Assembly: GCA_963718295.1 (NCBI GenBank)
Contig: CAVQYV010000002.1
Coordinates: 1 to 12,053 of the forward strand
Length of the DNA stretch: 12,053 nt
Direction of reading: 5' to 3'
Source of the DNA: CAVQYV01 sp963718295 [NCBI: uncultured Methylomirabilota bacterium]
GTDB taxonomy: Bacteria > Methylomirabilota > Methylomirabilia > CAVQYV01
A program made the position numbers and the translations under genes. Each line of letters begins with the position of its first letter. Position 1 is the stretch's first letter. A model generated the notes under the pieces. That model saw only the letters and a program-made list of their open reading frames with translations, did not search any database and was not told the origin of the DNA. Of this stretch, positions 1,708 through 11,753 are shown in pieces.

Positions 1708-3006
1708 TCAAGGGGAGCTTCGAAGCGCCGAGAAGAGAGCCTCCGCACTTGCTACCAAGTCCTCATCTTTCCAAAAGCGGCCGACGATCTGGATTCCCAG
1801 TGGCAAATTGGCCTCGTTTAGGCCTGCGGGAAGGGAAACGGTGGGCAGGCCGGCATAGGTCCAGGGGATATTCATGACCGGGCTTCCGGTGCTTTCGAGT
1901 CCCCTGGGGGCATGGTCGGTGGTGGAGGGAGCGATCCAAAGATCCAGCTGCTCTGATTCCATCTGTTCTTCGATCTCTTTTCGGAGTAAATGCCTCCCAG
2001 CACGAAGCATCTCCAACTCTCGGTCCGGCGTCTTCCCGCCCTTCTCGATGGTTTGGACCGTCCTGGGACGGTAAAGGGAGCTGAAGTCCTTGAACCATTG
2101 AGAATGGACCCTGGCCATCTCACCGGTGATCATCTCCATGTGCCGCTCGTTCACTGCCTCTACCTGAGGAAAGGCGCTGACATGCCTGATCAGATGCCCC
2201 GCATCCTGCAGCTTGGCCAATTGTCTCTGGAAGTGCTGAATGGCATTGCCAGTCGCCTGGGCCAGGTAGGGCCCATCCGGCACCCCGAGGACCATCGATT
2301 TGTGTCCTCTCATGGCTCTTGCTGGAAGTTGGGATCAGCCTTCGGCGAGGACCGACATCAGGAGGGACAACCCTGAAGGGTCCGGGCAGAAGATTCCCAC
2401 ATGGTCAGCAGAGGGGGAAAAGGGGATGACCCCGGCCGTCGAGATCCGGTCGAAGCTGGGCTTGAGTCCCCGATTCCGCAGTAGGCTGCAGGGCGGATGG
2501 TCGAGCCGGCGGTCTGGGTGCCGAGGGCGAAGGGAAAAAATCCCGCGGCCACGCCCGCCGCCGAGCCACTGCTGGAACCGCCCGGGTATGTTCCCGGTGA
2601 TAAGGATTGCGCGTGGGGCCGGGCTCCATCCAGGCAAACTCCGTGGTTGCGGTCTTCGCCGTAACAATCGCACCTGCGGCCTTGAGCCGGAGACTGAGGT
2701 CGCCTCGGGGCCGGCAAAGAGATGGGGAGGGAGCTTTGCGCCGCAGCGGGTGGGAAATCCGTCCACCCGAAAGATGTCCTTGATGCCTACCGGAACACCA
2801 AAAAGAGGCGGGCGAGAGGCAGGATCAGGGTACTGTATCAACAATTTTGAGGCTTCACCCAATATCCGGCTGCGGTCGAAGGTGCCGGGAACGAGGGCTT
2901 GTATCTCGGCCTCCCGCGATTCAATCCGGTCGCAGAGATCCGCCAAGTATGAGATCAAATTCAGCTCCCCTGACCGTAACCTGCAAGCCACATCCAGGAT
3001 TGCCAT
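1708..3006 (-). pseudogene. Amidase-signature family hydrolase, multiply frameshifted
   Basis: The start is ATG 3006 (MAILDVACRL) with SD GGAGGTGAT at 3022-3014, and the stop is TGA 1710-1708. This is roughly the normal length of an amidase (about 433 codons as written). Amidase-signature enzymes hydrolyse amide bonds with a Ser-cisSer-Lys triad, and all three parts are visible: Lys76 in FGVPVGIKD, the glycine/serine loop [14 protein letters not shown], and the nucleophile loop [16 protein letters not shown]. These lie in three different frames. One missing base near 2687-2691 gives [20 protein letters not shown]. One missing C at 2581-2587 gives [10 protein letters not shown]. One missing G at 2468-2471 gives [13 protein letters not shown]. 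There is also an in-frame TGA at 2337-2335 after MSVLAEG. The C-terminal part (LDLWIAPSTTDHAP, GSPVMNIPWTYAGLPTVSLP) is well conserved. Substrate unknown; an amide-containing metabolite processed with its dehydrogenase neighbours is likely. Confidence 0.85.
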
Positions 3007-3013
3007 CTTCAAA

Positions 3014-3022
3014 TCACCTCCG
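3014..3022 (-). promoter_or_regulatory. Shine-Dalgarno of the amidase
   Basis: GGAGGTGAT, a near-perfect anti-16S match, seven bases upstream of ATG 3006. It argues against the upstream in-frame ATG at 3057, which would overlap the end of the preceding gene. Confidence 0.65.
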
Positions 3023-3044
3023 CCCATCTCTTCGGGCTGCCCCT

Positions 3045-4004
3045 CTAACGGTACCATTCAGCATGAGCCTTCAGCTCCGAGTAGAAGTCAGCGATCATCC
3101 TCTCCAGGGAATAGTCGGGCTTCCAGCCCCATTCCTCCTCCGCCCTGCTATCATCAAAAGTGAGGCCCTGGACTTTGTTGTGATAGTCCATGGCGACCGG
3201 ATCAGGCTTGAAGTTCAACGGGGCTTGAGGATAGTGCCCCTTTACCTCAGCCACCAGTTCGGCCGCAGAGGTCATCGGTTTGATCCCGGCGATCAGGTAG
3301 CAGACTGTCTGGATGGACCTTTGGGGGCCGCTCAGCAAGAGCAGGACTCGGGCCGCGTCCTTGAAATAGAGCACCGGGCAGCGGATCTCCGGCTCTACGA
3401 AAATGTCGAAAGGTTCTCTGTAGAAGGCTTTTTCCACGGCCCAGGCGTTGTAAATCGAGACATGTGCTACCTTGGCGCCTGGACCGATCACGGAAGGAAA
3501 ACGAACGGCGCGAAAGTCGATCCCATATTTGGTGCGGTAAAATCTCCCCAGGAGCTCTCCGAAGACCTTGGTCGAGCCATACATGGTAGTGGGGCGTTGC
3601 AGGGTGAAATCGTCGATCACCGAGCTTTTGATATCCAACCCGTAGGTGGCAGTGGTGCTGGTGAAGATCACCCTGGGAACCTCAAAAAGGCGGGCGGCCT
3701 CCAGGACGTGGAAGATGCCGGCGACATTGGTGGAAAAGGCGCACTGGGGATCCGCATTGGAGGGCAGGGAAAGCATCCCGCCCAGATGGAAGATGACCTG
3801 GGGGGCGCAATCCTTGACCACTTGAAGGACATGGGAGAAATTGCCGAGATCCCCCTGAATGGTCTTGACTCGTTGCTCTATCCCTGAGAATCTATGGGGG
3901 GCGATCCATTTGTCGAATACCCAAATGGGCTCCTCTCTCTCCGCTAACATCCTTGTCAGGGTAGAGCCGACGAGCCCGCATCCGCCTGTAACCAAGATAG
4001 ACAT
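3045..4004 (-). CDS. NAD-dependent epimerase/dehydratase (extended SDR), resembling SDR-type L-threonine 3-dehydrogenase
   Basis: An intact 319-residue extended short-chain dehydrogenase. The NAD motif TGGCGLVG (GxxGxxG, residues 6-13) opens a Rossmann fold, DLGNF at about 52-56 fits the adenine-binding Asp, and IFHLGG follows at about 71-76. The active site is Ser/Thr at 116-117 (FTSTTATYG) with Y142-x3-K146 in MYGSTKVFGE. The stretch from YGSTKVFGE through GIDFRAVRFPSVIGPG to VLYFKDAARVLLLL closely recalls the SDR-type L-threonine dehydrogenases, although sugar-nucleotide epimerases share much of it. Start ATG 4004 has SD GAGGAGG at 4016-4010. It is the first gene of the minus-strand operon, 38 bases before the amidase start. 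It is free of the frameshifts that damage its two downstream neighbours. Exact substrate is uncertain. Confidence 0.8.
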   Translation of the reverse strand: MSILVTGGCGLVGSTLTRMLAEREEPIWVFDKWIAPHRFSGIEQRVKTIQGDLGNFSHVLQVVKDCAPQVIFHLGGMLSLPSNADPQCAFSTNVAGIFHVLEAARLFEVPRVIFTSTTATYGLDIKSSVIDDFTLQRPTTMYGSTKVFGELLGRFYRTKYGIDFRAVRFPSVIGPGAKVAHVSIYNAWAVEKAFYREPFDIFVEPEIRCPVLYFKDAARVLLLLSGPQRSIQTVCYLIAGIKPMTSAAELVAEVKGHYPQAPLNFKPDPVAMDYHNKVQGLTFDDSRAEEEWGWKPDYSLERMIADFYSELKAHAEWYR

Positions 4005-5025: not shown

Positions 5026-5874
5026 ATGAAAAGGGCGCTGGTTTGCATGTTGCTGGCGGGGCTGTTGCTGGGCATTTGCACCCTCGCAGGGGCCGAATCC
5101 AGGAACCTGGTCAAATTGGGCGGAGATCTGGTGGTCGGACCGGGAATGGAGCCCCGGGATGCGGTGGCCATTGGCGGAGATGTTCAAGTGGAGGGGTCCG
5201 TGGAGCGGCATGTCGTGGCGGTGGGGGGCTCGATCTCCTTGGGCCCGGAGGCCCAGGTGGGAGGAGATGTCATCTCCATAGGCGGAATCATCGAAAAGGA
5301 GGAGGGCGCCCAGGTCCGGGGGAACCTGGTGGAGGTCACATTGCCAGGCCTTTCCTCTTTGATCACCTCTCTTTCCCAGGGTAACTGGCGGGAGTACTTC
5401 TGGCCCATCCGTTTTATTTCCATTATCGCTTCCATTGGGCTTCTTGCCCTCTCGTTGGTCATCGTATCGATCTTCCCAAAGCCAGTGGGAGCCATTTCAG
5501 CAACCATAGAGACGCACACGCTGAAGGCCATCGGCTGGGGGCTCCTGGGCATATTGCTGGTTGCCCCCATTGCCTTGCTATTGGCGATATCGATTGTGGG
5601 GATTGTGCTGATTCCCCTGGAGATCGTCTTCGTGATCTGTGGGGTCCTCATCGGCTACATTGCCGCGGGGCAGCTTCTGGGGAAAAAGATCACGGTGGCC
5701 CTCAGGAAGCCGAATCAACCCATGTTTTGGGAGACCCTTTGGGGTCTCATCTTCCTGACGGTAATCGGATGGGTTCCGTTCCTTGGCCACCTGGTCAAGT
5801 CTGTGGCTGCCCTGGTGGGTTGGGGTGGTGTCATTTACTCCCTGGTGAACATCCGCAGAATCGGTCGAGGTTGA
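5026..5874 (+). CDS. Secreted/membrane protein with bactofilin-like polymer-forming repeats and C-terminal membrane helices
   Basis: 282 residues from ATG 5026, with SD AAGGAG at 5011-5016. Residues 1-23 form a signal peptide (basic MKR, hydrophobic core, AGA before ESRN). Residues 32-103 contain short beta-type repeats (GGDLVV, AIGGDVQVEG, VVAVGGSISLG, QVGGDVISIGG, QVRGNLVEV), the pattern of a right-handed beta-helix as in bactofilins and related polymer-forming domains. After a linker come three or four hydrophobic segments, roughly 128-150, 168-195, 196-216 and 238-270, ending in RRIGRG. The predicted layout is an extracytoplasmic beta-helix anchored by a helical membrane domain, so it is not a cytoplasmic bactofilin. 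A role in envelope organisation is possible but unproven. It follows the SDR by 82 bases and may be co-transcribed with it. Confidence 0.75.
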   Translation: MKRALVCMLLAGLLLGICTLAGAESRNLVKLGGDLVVGPGMEPRDAVAIGGDVQVEGSVERHVVAVGGSISLGPEAQVGGDVISIGGIIEKEEGAQVRGNLVEVTLPGLSSLITSLSQGNWREYFWPIRFISIIASIGLLALSLVIVSIFPKPVGAISATIETHTLKAIGWGLLGILLVAPIALLLAISIVGIVLIPLEIVFVICGVLIGYIAAGQLLGKKITVALRKPNQPMFWETLWGLIFLTVIGWVPFLGHLVKSVAALVGWGGVIYSLVNIRRIGRG

Positions 5875-5923: not shown

Positions 5924-6880
5924 ATGAGCCATAAAATCGTCTCCCCTCCCTTCCTGGATGAAGCAAGCCTGGAATCTCTGATCCGGCAGTTGGAAACTTC
6001 CGGCGAGTCCAGTCCCCCCAGCTCTGCTGCGGGAGGCTTCCACGAGCCGGCGGATTCTCCATTCTCCTTCTGGGAAGTGGATGTCAATCGGGTGAGATTT
6101 GTAGACCCCTACGGCATGATTGGCCTTTTAGAGATCGGAAGACACTTAAGACGCAATCAGCTCTTCCCCCAAATCTCGCTGCCCTGGAGAAGGGAGGTCC
6201 TGGGATACATGCAGCGCATGGATTTTTTCAAGGCTGCATCGGAGATCTACCAGGTAGCACCTCCCACGCCTTGGCCCCAGGAGAGATTCTCGAGACATCG
6301 TCGGTCGGACGTGCTCCTGGAGATCACTACCATCAAGGGCAACGAGGATATCCACGCCATCGTGGAAGAAGTGGAAAGAAGGGCGGAGTCGATACTGAGA
6401 GTGAACCTGAATTACGACAACCGGGCCATAGACCACTTTGTGGTGGCCCTCTCTGAGGTTTGCCAGAACATTCCGGAACATAGCCAGGACATGGGTTTTG
6501 TGTCCATCCAGAAGTACTATTATGGAAGGCGATTGGGGAAGAATGTCGTCAAGATTGCGGTCATGGATCTGGGAATCGGCATCCGAGAATCCCTGACGGA
6601 AAAGTATGGCTCCTCCTTTGGTTCGAATTGGGATGATTTCCAAGCGATCTCCCTTGCCCTGTTCGAAGGGGCCTCTCGATTCTCCGATCCGGGAAGGGGC
6701 CACGGCCTGAGCGAGGTGAGGAAGCTGGTGCAGAAATGGAATGGAAAGATCAGCATCCGCTCGGGGACCGTGCGCCTGGTATTACCTCCCTCGTGGGACT
6801 CCTCTGCTACGCATCAAACCCAACTTCCGCCTTTTCGAGGAACCCTCATCTCCATCATCCTGCCGGAGATCCATTCCTAA
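5924..6880 (+). CDS. GHKL-type ATP-binding protein with N-terminal STAS-like segment (partner-switch kinase-like)
   Basis: 318 residues. Residues 49-102 (VDVNRVRFVDPYGMIGLLEIG to YMQRMDFFK) resemble a STAS fold as in anti-anti-sigma factors. Residues 140-315 form a histidine-kinase-like ATPase. The N box is ALSEVCQNIPEHS with E178 and N182, G1 is MDLGIGI (D215, G217, G219), G2 is GRGHGLSEVRKL (257-268), and a G3-like FRGTLISI lies at about 305-312. There is no H box, transmembrane segment or receiver domain, so it is not a classical sensor kinase. Anti-sigma kinases such as SpoIIAB/RsbW are the closest functional analogy. Its likely partner is the STAS protein encoded next (7178-7765). ATG 5924 lacks a clear SD, and the gene lies 49 bases after the membrane protein. 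The domain call is fairly firm; the target is unknown. Confidence 0.7.
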   Translation: MSHKIVSPPFLDEASLESLIRQLETSGESSPPSSAAGGFHEPADSPFSFWEVDVNRVRFVDPYGMIGLLEIGRHLRRNQLFPQISLPWRREVLGYMQRMDFFKAASEIYQVAPPTPWPQERFSRHRRSDVLLEITTIKGNEDIHAIVEEVERRAESILRVNLNYDNRAIDHFVVALSEVCQNIPEHSQDMGFVSIQKYYYGRRLGKNVVKIAVMDLGIGIRESLTEKYGSSFGSNWDDFQAISLALFEGASRFSDPGRGHGLSEVRKLVQKWNGKISIRSGTVRLVLPPSWDSSATHQTQLPPFRGTLISIILPEIHS

Positions 6881-6905
6881 AAGCCTCGAAGGGTCTCATA
6901 GCCCT

Positions 6906-6914
6906 CCCCCCCCC
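6906..6914 (+). repeat. Nine-base C homopolymer between the ATPase and STAS genes
   Basis: Nine consecutive C residues lie 26 bases after the ATPase stop and 52 bases upstream of the proposed -35 box. It is non-coding in both orientations. Such a tract could be length-variable, but given the other homopolymer-related indels here its exact length is uncertain. Confidence 0.6.
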
Positions 6915-6965
6915 AAGACTCTTGGAAGTCCCTGCAAAAAATCGCAACAATTTGAAGAAAAATAC

Positions 6966-6994
6966 TTGACAATCAGGATTGGTGATATTAAATT
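6966..6994 (+). promoter_or_regulatory. Candidate sigma-70 promoter of the STAS regulator-EndoQ operon
   Basis: A perfect TTGACA (6966-6971) is followed by a 17-base spacer and TAAATT (6989-6994, 4/6). It sits in an AT-rich island inside GC-rich DNA. Transcription would begin near 7001, within the inverted repeat at 6995-7019, leaving a leader of about 175 bases before the first proposed start codon. Confidence 0.6.
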
Positions 6995-7019
6995 GTCTTC
7001 AATTGAAAGCATTGAAGAC
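6995..7019. promoter_or_regulatory. Perfect 9-bp inverted repeat, candidate operator
   Basis: GTCTTCAAT (6995-7003) and ATTGAAGAC (7011-7019) are exact inverted copies with a 7-base spacer, directly after the -10 box and over the expected transcription start. The smaller palindrome TTCAATTGAA (6999-7008) overlaps it. The position suits repression by a dimeric DNA-binding protein. The winged-helix-like product of the downstream gene is an obvious candidate for autoregulation, but that is inference. It could also fold as a hairpin at the RNA 5' end. Confidence 0.5.
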
Positions 7020-7177
7020 GATGGACCTTGCTTTTTGTCTATTATCCACGCCGGTTGCGGGCGATCAGTCAATGTTGAGTTTCTACTGCTTGTAGACTTA
7101 TCGGGATGGAATGATTCGATCTTTTTGCCGCGGATCTCTGATGCGACTCGAGAGCGAGAGCGCGGTATAGCGGTGAT
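7020..7177 (+). other. Long untranslated leader with possible hairpin
   Basis: No convincing gene is seen here. A 24-codon frame from ATG 7021 has no good SD. CCGCG (7128-7132) can pair with CGCGG (7161-7165), with inner CTCT/AGAG pairing helped by a duplicated GAGAGC (7150-7161), giving a structured stretch just before the start codon. A leader peptide or regulatory RNA fold is possible, but I recognise no riboswitch class. Confidence 0.3.
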
Positions 7178-7765
7178 TTGGGGGCGGAATTGAGGAAGCG
7201 GGTTTTCTCGGTGCGAGAGATCATGAAAGAGTTTCTGAGCAACGGGTCTCGCAGTCTGGTCACGCGAGACACGGGGAAGCGAATGCGCGAGGCCCTGGAG
7301 GAGAGATTGCAGGCAGAGCCGGAAGAGGTGGTTGCCATACTGGATTTCAAGGCAGTGGGGATCCTGGATTACTCCTGCGCCGATGAAATTGTGGCCAAAC
7401 TCATTTCCCGTCTCAACGCCGGTGAGTATGGAATCCGATATCTGATCGTGAGAGGGCTCAACTCGACCCAGAGAGAGAATATCGAGGTGGCCCTGGAACG
7501 GAAGCATCTCGCAGCCCTTTTCCTGCATGATGATAAGAGCTGGGAGATCCTGGGAGTCCTGAATAACTATCTCAAGGAAACCCTGAATGAGGTGATGCGA
7601 GAAGGAAGGATTACGGCCCGCGATCTCGCCGAAGCCGAGGATCTGGAGATCAATACCAGCAGCACTCGACTGGCGAACCTCTACAAAATCCAATTGGTGA
7701 GGCGCAGGGAAGAGTTGTTGAGCGAGGGGGGCCGGCAATTCGTCTATGAGTCCTTGCTGCTATGA
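7178..7765 (+). CDS. STAS-like (DUF4325-type) protein with C-terminal winged-helix-like region, putative regulator
   Basis: 195 residues from TTG 7178. Other possible starts are TTG 7190, GTG 7211 and ATG 7223, none with a decisive SD; I kept the long form because it retains KRVFSVREIMKEFL. Residues 51-79 (VVAILDFKAVGILDYSCADEIVAKLISRL) match the strand-Asp-strand-helix pattern of a STAS fold, as in anti-anti-sigma factors and the STAS-like DUF4325. Residues 130-192 look like a winged helix: helix NNYLKETLNEVMREG, then ITARDLAEAEDLEINTSSTRLANLYK as a helix-turn-helix, then IQLVRRREELLSEGGRQFVYESLL as a wing. A STAS sensor joined to a DNA-binding domain, next to a GHKL ATPase, suggests a partner-switch transcription regulator. 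Its TGA overlaps the ATG of the EndoQ gene (ATGA, 7762-7765), implying coupled translation. Confidence 0.65.
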   Translation: MGAELRKRVFSVREIMKEFLSNGSRSLVTRDTGKRMREALEERLQAEPEEVVAILDFKAVGILDYSCADEIVAKLISRLNAGEYGIRYLIVRGLNSTQRENIEVALERKHLAALFLHDDKSWEILGVLNNYLKETLNEVMREGRITARDLAEAEDLEINTSSTRLANLYKIQLVRRREELLSEGGRQFVYESLLL

Positions 7766-9051
7766 CCGACCCTTACCGTTTCATCGCCGATTTTCATGTG
7801 CATTCGAAATACAGTCGGGCCACCAGCCGGGATATGCAGCCTGAAACCCTGGCCAAATGGTGCGAGATCAAAGGGATCAAGGTGCTGGGAACGGGGGATT
7901 TCACGCATCCTACTCATTTCGCAGAGTTGAAAGCCAAGTTGGAGCCGCAAGCGAATGGTCTGCTGAGCCTGGTCGAGGGCGCCTCCCGCACCTATTTTGT
8001 TTTCACTGCGGAGGTGAGCAATATCTATTCCGAGGGAGGCCGGATCCGCAAGATTCACACCCTGATCATGGCCCCCGATTTTGAGACGGTGGAAAGGATC
8101 AATGCCCGATTGGGGAAAATGGGGAGGCTCTCCTCCGATGGGCGCCCCATCTTCGGCTTCCCGGTGAGGGACCTGGCAAAGGTGATTCTGGACATATCAG
8201 AGGACTGCCTCATCATTCCCGCCCATGCCTGGACCCCCTGGTTTTCCATCTTCGGGGCCAATTCCGGCTTTGATTCCCTGGAGGAGTGCTTCGGGGAGGA
8301 ATCGAAGTCCATCTGCGCGATCGAAACGGGCCTTTCCTCGGATCCGGAGATGAACTGGCGCCTTTCCGCCCTCGATTCGATCACCCTGATCTCGAACTCC
8401 GATGCCCATTCTCCGAACCGAATTGGACGGGAGGCCAATGTATTCTCCGGGGAGCCGAATTACCGGGAGATCGTGGACGCGATCCGGAGGAAGGATCGGG
8501 GCAAGTTCCTCTTCACCATCGAGTTCTATCCGGAGGAGGGGAAGTATCATTACGACGGGCATCGTGCCTGCGGAGTGATTTTCTCTCCCGCACAGACGCT
8601 GAGCCATCATTACCTTTGTCCCGTATGCAAGAAAAAGCTGACCGTGGGAGTGTTGCATCGGGTGGAGTCCCTGGCGGACCGCCCTTCAGGGACCATGCCG
8701 CCGGGGGCCATCCCATCCGTCCATATGGTTCCTTTGGAGGAGATCATTGCCCGGACGCTCGATCAAGGGGTCGAGACGGCAGCGGTGGAGCGGGAGTATC
8801 AGAGGATGATCTCTCGGGGTGGATCGGAATTCAATATCCTCCTGGATCTATCCCCCGTGGATTTGGAGGGCTTTTGCAGCCCCAAGATCCTGGAAGGGAT
8901 CCTGCGGGTAAGGGAGGGCAGGCTCCGGATCGTTCCTGGCCATGACGGGGTTTATGGGAAGATCGAGATCTTCGACGAGTCGGAAGAAGGGGCTGAGGCA
9001 GTCTCCTCCGGTGAAGGAGACCGGCGGCAGATGACTCTTTTCGGATCGTAA
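7762..9051 (+). CDS. Endonuclease Q (EndoQ)-type PHP-domain DNA repair endonuclease
   Basis: 429 residues, close to known EndoQ length. EndoQ, known mainly from Thermococcales, some methanogens and a few bacteria, nicks DNA 5' of deaminated bases (uracil, hypoxanthine, xanthine) and abasic sites. The PHP metal site is complete: FHVHSKYS (H12, H14), GTGDFTHP (D46), AEVSNIY (E84), KIHTLIM (H99), PAHAWTPW (H155), SNSDAHS (D214, H216). A zinc-ribbon-like part follows, with KYHYDGHRAC (H264/H267, C270) and CPVCKKKLTVGV (C286, C289), then RVESLADRP, which is typical of this family. The last residues are QMTLFGS (QMTLF at 423-427), a possible sliding-clamp motif. ATG 7762 overlaps the stop of the STAS regulator. 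Cytoplasmic or nucleoid. An annotation as a generic PHP or UvrD-associated protein would be less specific. Confidence 0.88.
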   Translation: MTDPYRFIADFHVHSKYSRATSRDMQPETLAKWCEIKGIKVLGTGDFTHPTHFAELKAKLEPQANGLLSLVEGASRTYFVFTAEVSNIYSEGGRIRKIHTLIMAPDFETVERINARLGKMGRLSSDGRPIFGFPVRDLAKVILDISEDCLIIPAHAWTPWFSIFGANSGFDSLEECFGEESKSICAIETGLSSDPEMNWRLSALDSITLISNSDAHSPNRIGREANVFSGEPNYREIVDAIRRKDRGKFLFTIEFYPEEGKYHYDGHRACGVIFSPAQTLSHHYLCPVCKKKLTVGVLHRVESLADRPSGTMPPGAIPSVHMVPLEEIIARTLDQGVETAAVEREYQRMISRGGSEFNILLDLSPVDLEGFCSPKILEGILRVREGRLRIVPGHDGVYGKIEIFDESEEGAEAVSSGEGDRRQMTLFGS

Positions 9052-9090: not shown

Positions 9091-9927
9091 ATGACAATCC
9101 CAATGGGACAACATTACAAGGAATCGCAGATCGGTGGTGTGGGCCTGTTGGAGTTGCGGGGAAGGGAGAGCAAATTGGCGGCCTTTGACGCGATTACCTT
9201 CGATTACTGGCAAACCCTCGTTCAGGATACCCCGGAGGGTTTGAGGAGAGGCCGGGAGATACGGACGGAGGGCGTGAGAAAGGTCTTGGACGCCAGGGGG
9301 GTCCACCTTTCCGATGGGGAGATCGATCGGGCCTATGATGAGTCCGGCCAACGAATCATGCGGATCTGGGCCCGGGACGAGGACATCAGCCCCACCGAAC
9401 AGGTACTGATCTTCCTCCAATGCCTCGATTTGAATTCTTCAAACCTTCTGGGAGAGGAGATTTTGGAGGAGCTGGAGCTGGCTTATTCCACCCCTCTACT
9501 TCAGGCTCCTCCCATGCTCTGCCTTGGGGCCAGGGAGATCCTGCTGCGGGTTCAGCAATCGGGATGCCGCATTGGCCTGATCTCCAATACGGGACGGACC
9601 CCGGGCTATATATTGAGGCAAGTGCTGGAACGCTTCGAAGTCCTCTCCTTCTTCGATGTGCTTACCTTCTCCGACGAGCGCAGGGTGCGAAAGCCGCATC
9701 CGAGGATCTTCCTCCACCATCTCGAGGAGCAGGGGGTCAGGCCGGAGCGGGCCTTGCACGTGGGAGATGACCTGCGGTGCGACGTGGGCGGCGCCAAAGG
9801 GGTAGGGATGCGGGCGATCCATCTGGACAGGGACGAGGAGAAGAGGACGGATGTGCAGCCCGACGGGATCGTCGAGGACCTCACGCAATTGCATGACATC
9901 ATCCAACGGCTGGAGAGACATGGATGA
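9091..9927 (+). CDS. HAD-superfamily hydrolase
   Basis: 278 residues from ATG 9091, which has no clear SD. TTG 9175, with AGGGAG at 9163-9168, would give the common compact start MAAFDAITFDYW and is a real alternative. Numbering from 9091, motif I is FDYWQTL (nucleophile D38), motif II LISNTG (S165), motif III RVRKPHPRIF (K201) and motif IV HVGDDLRCDVGGA (D226, D227, D231). A helical C1-type cap lies between motifs I and II. The usual second Asp of DxDxT is Trp40, as in some haloacid-dehalogenase-like members, so ordinary phosphatase activity is in doubt. Substrate is unknown. It follows EndoQ by 39 bases, in the same direction and probably the same operon. Confidence 0.8.
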   Translation: MTIPMGQHYKESQIGGVGLLELRGRESKLAAFDAITFDYWQTLVQDTPEGLRRGREIRTEGVRKVLDARGVHLSDGEIDRAYDESGQRIMRIWARDEDISPTEQVLIFLQCLDLNSSNLLGEEILEELELAYSTPLLQAPPMLCLGAREILLRVQQSGCRIGLISNTGRTPGYILRQVLERFEVLSFFDVLTFSDERRVRKPHPRIFLHHLEEQGVRPERALHVGDDLRCDVGGAKGVGMRAIHLDRDEEKRTDVQPDGIVEDLTQLHDIIQRLERHG

Positions 9928-9986
9928 TCTGCCCGCCCGAGGGGATGGGACGTCCCCCGGGGAGGAGCCCATCGGAGAAAGAACAA

Positions 9987-10361
9987 ATGGGGATGGACCG
10001 CGATCGGTTTCATCAGCTGGTAGCGGAGGCGGTGAGGGGTCTTCCGAAGGTATTTCGTGGGAAAATGGAAAATGTGGAGATCCTGGTGGAGGACTGGCCT
10101 CCGGAACGTCCCCGGGGAGGGCGGAGAGGCAGACGGAACGGCACCCTGCTGGGTTTGTATCACGGTTATCCGCTCCGGGAACGGGGAGCCTGGTACGGGA
10201 ACGTGCTCCCTGATCAGATCGTGATCTACCAGGGTCCGATTGAGAAGTCCTGTCAGAGTGAGGAGGAGATCCGAGAGCGGGTGAGGGAGGTCGTACTCCA
10301 CGAGGTCGGCCATTACTTCGGATTAGAAGAAGAGGAGCTGAGGGCGATAGAGGAAGAGTAG
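9987..10361 (+). CDS. Minimal zincin-like metallopeptidase family protein (PF06262-like)
   Basis: 124 residues from ATG 9987 (MGMDRDRFHQLVAEAV), with GGAG at 9974-9977. The frame is open from ATG 9924, which overlaps the HAD stop as ATGA, but the extra 21 residues are proline-rich and atypical; family members start near MDRDRF and are about 115-130 residues. The C-terminal motif EVVLHEVGHYFGLEEEEL carries HExxH (H105, E106, H109), a following Gly and acidic residues that suit the third zinc ligand. The stretch between (LGLYHGYPL, PDQIVIYQGPIE) is typical of this family. These small proteins are widespread, predicted cytoplasmic zincins; their physiological substrates are largely unestablished. 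It lies at the end of the EndoQ-HAD run. Confidence 0.8.
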   Translation: MGMDRDRFHQLVAEAVRGLPKVFRGKMENVEILVEDWPPERPRGGRRGRRNGTLLGLYHGYPLRERGAWYGNVLPDQIVIYQGPIEKSCQSEEEIRERVREVVLHEVGHYFGLEEEELRAIEEE

Positions 10362-10721: not shown

Positions 10722-11753
10722 ATGAGAGACCTCAAGTCGTTGTCGTCGCAAGATCTCTCAGAGCTGACGTCTCGGTGGGGACATCCAGGGTATCGAGTCA
10801 GCCAGATCAGACAATGGTTGTATCAGAAGCGCATCCGCGAATTCTCGGAAATGAGCAATCTCCCCCTGGCCCTTCGGCAAAGGCTGGCGGAGGAGTTTTA
10901 CATTGGATTCCTCAAGATCGTGCACCGAGAGGAGTCGGTCGATGGCACCCGGAAGTTCTTGATCGAGTTGGAGGATGGAAGGCGAATCGAGAGCGTGCTC
11001 ATCCGGGATGAGGACCGCCTGACGGCCTGCATCTCCAGCCAGGTGGGTTGCCCCTTGGGCTGCGAATTCTGTCGCACCGGCAGGAATGGCTATGAACGGG
11101 ACCTCTTGGGGTTCGAGATCGCGGGGCAGGTGCTGGCGCTGCAGGATGAGTTGGGAGAAGGGGAGAGGATCACCAATCTGGTCTTTATGGGAATGGGAGA
11201 GCCCCTCCTGAATCTGCGGGAACTCAGGGAGGCATTAGACCTGTTCTCGGCCGGAGAAGGGCTGGGCTTCTCACCTCGGAGGGTGACGGTTTCTACGGTG
11301 GGAGTGGTTCCGGCCATGAGGGAGATGGGGAGTTGGGGGCTGAAAGTGAAGTTGGCCGTCTCCCTGAACGCAGCCGATGAAAAGACTCGTTCTCGCCTGA
11401 TGCCCATCGATCGAAGGTTTCCCCTCTCTGCCTTGATACCCGCCTGCAAGGCCTTTCCTCTGCCCAAAGGACAGAGGATCACCTTTGAGTATGTGTTGAT
11501 AGACGGCGTGAACGATCGACTCCAGGATGCCGAGGCCTTGGTCCGGCTCCTGCGGGGATTGCCCTGCAAGGTCAACCTCATTCCCTTCAACCCGTGGGCC
11601 GGATGTGCCTTCCGCCCTCCCTCTCCCGGGAAGGTAGAGGCCTTCCAACAAGTCCTCCTCGATCACCACTACACCGCCCTGATGCGGAAGAGCAAGGGGG
11701 CGGACATCTCTGCGGCCTGCGGCCTCCTGACGGGTTCTTCTCCGGGCAACTGA
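10722..11753 (+). CDS. rlmN: Dual-specificity RNA methyltransferase RlmN (23S rRNA A2503 / tRNA A37)
   Basis: 343 residues, full length. RlmN is a cytoplasmic radical-SAM enzyme that makes 2-methyladenosine at A2503 of 23S rRNA and at A37 of some tRNAs. The 4Fe-4S cluster motif is C110-PLG-C114-EF-C117. The resolving Cys103 lies seven residues before it (TACISSQVGC), and the methyl-carrying Cys333 is in AACGLLTG near the C-terminus, so both catalytic cysteines are present. GMGEPLLN (about 157-164), RRVTVSTVGVVP, LAVSLNA and VNLIPFNP are family hallmarks. The absence of alternative Cys spacing argues against Cfr. ATG 10722 fits the usual N-terminus, but only a weak GAG-type SD precedes it. It stands apart from the EndoQ operon by 181 bases holding a hairpin and an AT-rich tract. 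Confidence 0.95.
   Translation: MRDLKSLSSQDLSELTSRWGHPGYRVSQIRQWLYQKRIREFSEMSNLPLALRQRLAEEFYIGFLKIVHREESVDGTRKFLIELEDGRRIESVLIRDEDRLTACISSQVGCPLGCEFCRTGRNGYERDLLGFEIAGQVLALQDELGEGERITNLVFMGMGEPLLNLRELREALDLFSAGEGLGFSPRRVTVSTVGVVPAMREMGSWGLKVKLAVSLNAADEKTRSRLMPIDRRFPLSALIPACKAFPLPKGQRITFEYVLIDGVNDRLQDAEALVRLLRGLPCKVNLIPFNPWAGCAFRPPSPGKVEAFQQVLLDHHYTALMRKSKGADISAACGLLTGSSPGN

Follow-up and report, generated by a model that had tools for sequence, protein, structure and literature searches.

A putative CapK/CapS-like phospho-switch operon that includes a gene for an endonuclease Q homologue in an uncultured Methylomirabilota bacterium

Introduction

In the stretch of DNA analyzed here (12,053 nucleotides from a contig of an uncultured Methylomirabilota bacterium, referred to as the window) the gene of a regulator composed of a STAS domain and a winged helix, which we call SwH, runs directly into a gene for a homologue of endonuclease Q (EndoQ). 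This raises the question whether EndoQ is the controlled output of a damage-responsive switch or the neighbor of a regulator that serves other genes. An earlier note on this DNA had proposed that EndoQ is induced by a signal such as base-deamination stress, or that the two proteins work together, and it knew of no described regulation of EndoQ; our literature search likewise found none, and EndoQ is not mentioned in the accessible part of the paper to which the search on the regulator led (Chambers et al., EMBO J 2026, PMC13373217; June 2026).

That paper was reached by full-text search after a profile search of PDB sequences had found the CapS structures 9z71-9z73, and its accessible part describes CapK/CapS as a DNA-damage-activated kinase/repressor pair which controls adjacent immune pathways. 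CapK is an HTH-STAS-GHKL kinase that is activated by ssDNA from DNA damage, and deletion of its N-terminal HTH had no effect. CapS is a STAS-wHTH repressor that binds a palindrome within the capK-capS gap; phosphorylation of its Ser54 by CapK leads to dissociation of the CapS dimer and to de-repression of the adjacent immune operon. In 88 of 443 cases capK-capS lies directly downstream of a restriction-modification (R-M) system. The same source describes VapS, whose STAS domain binds the nuclease VapC and which phospho-mimicry sets free (PMC13373217).

Gene Content of the Window

The features of the locus are listed in Table 1. They include the overlap of the regulator stop codon with the EndoQ start codon, as it had been described before, and, upstream on the same strand, a STAS-GHKL gene, the GHKL partner that the earlier note had named. 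Between this gene and SwH is a gap of 297 nt (6881-7177) without any likely gene, so that the kinase gene is followed directly by the STAS-wHTH gene.

Table 1. Features of the kinase-SwH-EndoQ locus and of the genes downstream, in window positions.
Feature	Positions	Strand	Remarks
STAS-GHKL kinase, CapK/VapK-like	5924-6880	+	318 aa; HATPase_c E 9e-9
Sigma70-like promoter, TTGACA-17-TAAATT	6966-6994	+	10 of 12 consensus matches
Inverted repeat around operator	6992-7022	none	12-nt arms with one mismatch, 7-nt loop
Operator core, TTCAATTGAAAGCATTGAA	6998-7016		3 mismatches to TTCAATTGANTCAATTGAA
SwH, STAS + winged-helix putative repressor, CapS-like	7178-7765	+	195 aa; TTG start
ATGA stop/start overlap SwH/EndoQ	7762-7765	+	translational coupling
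Endonuclease Q (EndoQ) homologue	7762-9051	+	429 aa; ATG start
HAD hydrolase	9091-9927		Pfam; downstream of EndoQ
Zincin_1 metallopeptidase	9924-10361		Pfam; downstream of EndoQ
RlmN	10722-11753		Pfam; downstream of EndoQ

The AlphaFold2 model of SwH (mean pLDDT 94.9) predicts a STAS domain followed by a winged helix (helices 130-142, 147-154 and 158-170; wing 175-191), which bears out the STAS/winged-helix assignment and the DNA-binding fold that the earlier note had expected of a structure prediction. Among PDB chains the model matched RsbS (Z 9.3, rmsd 3.1 over 104 residues) and many MarR-type winged helices; the CapS structures were not among the best 50 matches listed by Foldseek or VIA (PDB copy to April 2026). 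Family labels from Pfam and NCBIfam are weak (HTH_24 just under the cut-off; DUF4325 with E 0.047), and phage records gave no match to SwH at E 0.01. An alignment of 70 of the 81 family sequences shows no exception at S66. A second in-frame TTG at 7190, with GGGGGCGG ahead of it and nearer to the starts of the homologues, is an alternative start. At two other loci (L126, about 10806-11036; L127, about 2089-2292) the winged-helix part of SwH was matched and the STAS domain was not.

The window kinase carries the conserved N-box (E178/N182/H186), G1 (D215xG217xG219) and G2 (R258-G259-x-G261) motifs. Across 33 kinases there is no variation at H186, D215, G217, G219, G259 and G261, and hardly any at E178, N182 and R258. 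Its model (pLDDT 89.7) gave Foldseek matches to CheA P4, to the SpoIIAB/SpoIIAA entry 1tid and to RsbV/RsbW entries. Six plasmid records match the kinase, every one at less than 33% identity.

The protein encoded downstream of SwH is, judging by its sequence, an EndoQ homologue, and nicking 5' of uracil, hypoxanthine and AP sites would be its activity as a member of that family. It matches PfuEndoQ (5zb8, 7k30-7k33) across nearly the whole chain (E 3e-52, residues 9-406) and retains the PHP-type metal motifs DFHVH, GTGDFTHP and SNSDAH, whereas one zinc-finger Cys of PfuEndoQ is apparently His in the window protein (HRAC..CPVC, from the alignment). The NCBIfam TIGR00375 match has E 4e-51, yet lies below the family cut-off. 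A further known EndoQ is that of B. pumilus (cited in the accessible part of PMC6202378); unlike Endonuclease Q as known so far, the window gene is coupled to a regulator. The phylum sampled around loci L001 and L004 (named records: Syntrophobacterales, Deltaproteobacteria bacterium) supplied the best EndoQ matches observed, with identities of up to 70%. Long EndoQ reading frames, of about 890-1390 aa, occur repeatedly in the matches listed for this phylum, and two further loci encode fusions of EndoQ with a C-terminal UvrD/Rep helicase (L197:1331-4525, minus strand; L198:2102-5308, plus strand; 1064 and 1068 aa). In L001 (10755-11849) and L002 (about 5564-5567) a DUF763 gene (Pfam on the L001 copy) ends only a few bases from where EndoQ starts, which links EndoQ tightly to another gene at these loci.

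Two genes at the beginning of the window, for a DRL-type oxidoreductase and an amidase (292-1585 and 1708-3057, minus strand), are each split into two reading frames and are either pseudogenes or sequence errors, so that sequence errors in the window are possible. RlmN of the window is at most 53% identical in the 20 genomes searched and did not separate the phyla.

Relationship to CapK/CapS and to Partner Switches

Alignments were made with E. roggenkampii CapK and CapS (WP_001567866.1 and WP_001567865.1), the same pair as in the paper. By hhalign the window kinase aligns with CapK over most of the common length (97.6%, E 3e-12) and SwH with CapS over STAS domain and wHTH (96%, E 4e-9), in both cases at 19% identity. 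On these alignments SwH and the upstream GHKL protein are very diverged relatives of CapS and of CapK/VapK, and the type of regulator is one already known. Both systems have a kinase gene followed by a STAS-wHTH repressor gene, a STAS domain and the GHKL N, G1 and G2 motifs in the kinase, a conserved STAS serine, and a palindromic operator on a promoter in the kinase-repressor gap. S66 of SwH aligns with the phospho-acceptor Ser54 of CapS, and all eight sequences of the alignment, CapS included, agree at S66 and at E70. For the predicted DNA contacts of CapS the picture is mixed: SwH keeps the Gly-Gly wing (G169-G170), whereas N145 and K151 align with Thr and Ala.

There are also clear differences. 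The window kinase lacks the N-terminal HTH of CapK and begins at the STAS strand, and is for this reason named CapK/VapK-like; a STAS + GHKL kinase without HTH is also what VapK is in the accessible part of PMC13373217. VapS has no wHTH, unlike SwH, and the PIN nuclease VapC is absent from the window operon. F10 of the window kinase aligns with the ssDNA-stacking aromatic residue (W68 in CapK, F54 in VapK); relatives carry other residues at this position, which is not conserved in the family. Downstream of SwH there is EndoQ in place of CBASS, Bub or Thoeris immune operons. SpoIIAA/SpoIIAB and RsbV/RsbW share the STAS fold, the GHKL kinase fold and the position of the phospho-acceptor Ser with the window pair, but the output here is a DNA-binding domain on the STAS protein itself and not a sigma factor.

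The Promoter and the Putative Operator

It is the promoter with its operator upstream of SwH, and not the ATGA overlap, that exceeds chance: the inner 9-nt repeat pattern of the window palindrome is expected 0.01 times in the window when up to three mismatches are allowed, whereas overlaps of the ATGA type are common, the regulator gene overlapping the next ORF in 5 of 81 loci (window included). A conserved putative operator, TTCAATTGAnTCAATTGAA, lies on a TTGACA promoter in the kinase-repressor gap at all 30 close-group loci in which both genes are seen, again with the window included. Twenty-nine of these were scored positive by script, and one (L003, site at 5961) was counted by hand, its automatic SwH start having been placed too early, ahead of the site, so that the script scored it negative. 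TTGACA or TTGACT precedes the operator by 23-34 nt in 29 of the 29 script-scored loci, and at 23 nt, the commonest distance, the operator covers the -10 position. The window, L001 and L003 share a layout of -35, 17 nt, -10, 3 nt and operator.

Searching for TTCAATTGANTCAATTGAA with up to three mismatches gave 66 sites in 1.11 Mb (101 sequences, a few of which overlap) against 0.67 in order-1 Markov sequences. Genome-wide, with up to two mismatches, the operator was found in 35 of 37 chosen SwH-bearing genomes (the two without it being G029 and G106) and the reversed pattern in none of the 37. It is single in 24 of the 35 positive genomes and present at more than one site in 11; of the secondary sites retrieved, most had no common target. 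No operator was found at the ten distant loci L071-L080 (mostly Gemmatimonadota, with one Bacillales and one Kuenenia-labelled contig). As it occurs mostly once per genome, at the kinase-SwH gap, the operator looks like the site of a regulator that acts locally, on its own operon together with the cargo. TTCAATTGANTCAATTGAA differs from the TTAA half-sites of CapS and appears to be new, searches on this protein family having led only to PMC13373217.

Operator-like sites were also observed at two other kinds of gene. One is on the TTGACA promoter of an MrfA-like helicase gene followed by an MrfB-like exonuclease gene (L165, about 3986, in G001; L168, about 3963, in G003), a gene pair which we take to encode mitomycin C repair factors. 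The two sites match one another over part of the palindrome and are not independent, as the MrfA proteins of G001 and G003 are 86% identical. The other, identical at its two loci, lies 5 nt ahead of a conserved peptide of 34 aa (L162, about 3957; L163, about 3717); the peptide contains a hydrophobic stretch and is reminiscent of SOS-induced membrane peptides.

Neighbors of SwH in Other Genomes

A genome scan found 219 relatives of SwH, and the best 80 loci were analyzed. In 70 of them the relative is 47-58% identical to SwH, and these come from records labelled Nitrospirae/Nitrospirota, Nitrospinae/Nitrospinota, Planctomycetota (Brocadia group), Deltaproteobacteria/Desulfobacteraceae and others; the other ten are more distant and mostly from Gemmatimonadota. 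Within the sequence in view the kinase lies upstream of SwH in 39 of the 80 loci, and in 26 of these 39 the two genes are 0.7-5.6 kb apart. Pfam matches of the 72 proteins encoded in kinase-SwH gaps (best 25 of 45 families listed) comprise 16 N6_N4_Mtase, five TdeIII, four D12 methylases, two each of MjaI, Eco57I and ResIII, and one each of AlwI, EcoO109I and MvaI/BcnI, and PADLOC concurs on the type II methyltransferases. By a motif test a methyltransferase is present in the gap of at least 13 of the 30 close-group loci, and 13 of 69 further proteins encoded upstream of SwH, at loci where no kinase was seen, match N6_N4_Mtase. R-M genes thus lie between kinase and repressor in SwH relatives, whereas capK-capS, in the 88 of 443 cases mentioned above, lies directly downstream of an R-M system. 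In 46 genomes there are 351 N6_N4_Mtase matches, of which 1.6 would be expected within 6 kb of SwH; at least 19 were counted there, spread over 16 genomes, from rows picked by eye on the SwH contig near SwH among the matches listed; all 21 N6_N4_Mtase genes within 8 kb of SwH, among the matches listed, are on the SwH strand.

R-M genes of several unrelated types were seen between kinase and SwH behind the same operator in L008, L009, L015, L035, L036, L041, L047, L052, L053, L059, L060, L062 and L067. A conserved family of 83-117 aa accompanies the R-M cargo at 14 loci (L008:5701-5982, L012:5692-5973, L015:4020-4292 and 11 more); the one member scanned had no Pfam match. Remnants of SwH 5' ends or of a kinase 3' end at the borders of the cargo (L025:5091-5192, L030:2907-3070, G203:C21:47805-47921) suggest that cargo is exchanged by recombination in the flanking genes.

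Genes of DNA maintenance are found beside SwH as well. In the 80 loci plus the window, MutS lies within 111 nt downstream of SwH in seven, RmuC within 3.3 kb in 17 and a DinG-like helicase within 3.9 kb in nine (labels from Pfam on one representative each). In L068 SwH is coupled by ATGA to an AddA-like helicase-nuclease, at a locus in which no operator was found, and the gene order in L118 is YebC, SwH, RuvC, RuvA. These neighbors support a link of SwH to DNA maintenance, with much of the pattern being synteny within phyla and not independent.

Linkage of SwH and EndoQ

How often EndoQ accompanies SwH bears directly on an alternative in which the targets of the kinase/SwH pair are its own promoter and, among relatives, R-M genes, while EndoQ became a neighbor by loss of intervening genes and is co-transcribed for no particular purpose. 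Direct coupling was seen in the window only, among the loci seen. EndoQ is present at two of the 80 SwH loci, both times about 5 kb away, the flanks covered being no longer than 6 kb. A search of 32 complete SwH-bearing genome assemblies gave an EndoQ match in 21, usually at a great distance from SwH or on a different contig. In the sampled phylum 239 of 395 genomes have EndoQ (E 1e-100 or better), and 17 of 297 have near-full-length SwH (E 1e-50 or better). No operator was found, at up to four mismatches, in 30 other EndoQ loci with 1.5 kb flanks, so that EndoQ is generally not under this regulator. EndoQ is thus not the usual partner of SwH, and R-M genes are frequent partners elsewhere; these counts, and the enrichment of N6_N4_Mtase genes near SwH, are what the alternative has in its favor. 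Against it stand the DNA-repair genes among the other neighbors of SwH, and the class of L001. SwH is present in 16 of the 23 genomes of this class, and 15 of the 16 have EndoQ on the same strand, 4.3-7.9 kb downstream; G003, the remaining one, has SwH and EndoQ on separate contigs. EndoQ is also present in six of the seven genomes of the class that lack SwH. GalT-like, heptosyltransferase and other genes lie between SwH and EndoQ in the genomes of the class that were inspected, and in the sampled phylum EndoQ is within 8 kb downstream of SwH in eight of the 17 genomes. On balance we consider an incidental neighborhood rather unlikely, although it deserves weight. The neighborhood survey that the earlier note had proposed therefore gives a divided answer: the linkage is conserved in one class, while the tight coupling is confined to the window and EndoQ occurs mostly without SwH.

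The translational coupling of the two genes would also suit a direct interaction, in which SwH binds EndoQ and keeps it inactive until phosphorylation frees it, much as VapS binds its nuclease by the STAS domain until freed by phospho-mimicry (accessible part of PMC13373217). We regard this as improbable, as SwH has a full winged helix and a dedicated operator where VapS has no wHTH, and 78 of the 80 SwH loci have no EndoQ within the sequence in view. A conventional anti-sigma partner switch, with the GHKL protein sequestering a sigma factor and SwH as antagonist with an accessory DNA-binding domain, is very improbable despite the structural matches to SpoIIAB/SpoIIAA, RsbV/RsbW and RsbS, since none of the 13 window reading frames scanned with Pfam is a sigma factor and a wHTH with an operator on a consensus-like sigma70 promoter makes one unnecessary.

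Discussion

The locus is probably a damage-responsive phospho-switch operon of the CapK/CapS kind with EndoQ as its output. This reading builds on gene order, the overlap, the predicted folds, the kinase and phospho-acceptor residues, the promoter-like sequence and the operator, all of which are observed in the window. By analogy with CapK/CapS, SwH would be a dimeric repressor which binds the inverted repeat on the promoter and keeps its own gene and the coupled EndoQ gene off. DNA damage would expose ssDNA and activate the upstream STAS-GHKL kinase, which would phosphorylate SwH at Ser66; phosphorylated SwH would leave the operator, EndoQ would be made, and fresh SwH made together with it would reset the switch. 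It is the anatomy of the locus alone that points to EndoQ as the controlled output: there is no gap between SwH and EndoQ, and the promoter at the operator should therefore read into EndoQ, which may in addition have a promoter of its own inside SwH. The linkage of SwH and EndoQ in the class of L001 and the DNA-maintenance genes beside SwH elsewhere speak for this phospho-switch reading. Counting against it are the 19% identity to CapK and CapS, the missing N-terminal HTH, the variable residue at the ssDNA-stacking position, the Thr and Ala in place of N145 and K151, an operator unlike the TTAA sites, the three mismatches in the window operator, the lack of operators at 30 other EndoQ loci, the distance of EndoQ from SwH in most SwH-bearing genomes, the 4-8 kb of other genes between SwH and EndoQ in the class with conserved linkage, and the possible sequence errors in the window. 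With the operator preceding the regulator-EndoQ operon, EndoQ is probably damage-inducible if the switch works like its relative. The induction by DNA stress proposed in the earlier note thus stands as probable, with ssDNA from DNA damage, the signal in CapK/CapS, as a likelier signal than base deamination as such (accessible part of PMC13373217).

For the family as a whole we propose, tentatively and as a possibility that falls short of being probable, that the SwH branch is a kinase-driven DNA-damage response outside LexA. In Nitrospirota, Nitrospinota, Planctomycetota and Desulfobacterota, TTCAATTGANTCAATTGAA would place repair genes (EndoQ, DinG-like and possibly mrfAB, MutS and RmuC) together with exchangeable R-M systems under a CapS-like repressor, the R-M genes being swapped in between kinase and repressor and so inheriting the control. 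If one damage-controlled promoter drives both a methyltransferase and the matching restriction enzyme, this should endanger the host, which raises the question how such R-M systems stay safe. A regulated EndoQ would be the first case, none having been found in our literature search or in the accessible part of PMC13373217, and if the reading is true the logic of CapK/CapS reaches beyond immune operons into DNA repair and is tied to a precisely defined operator.
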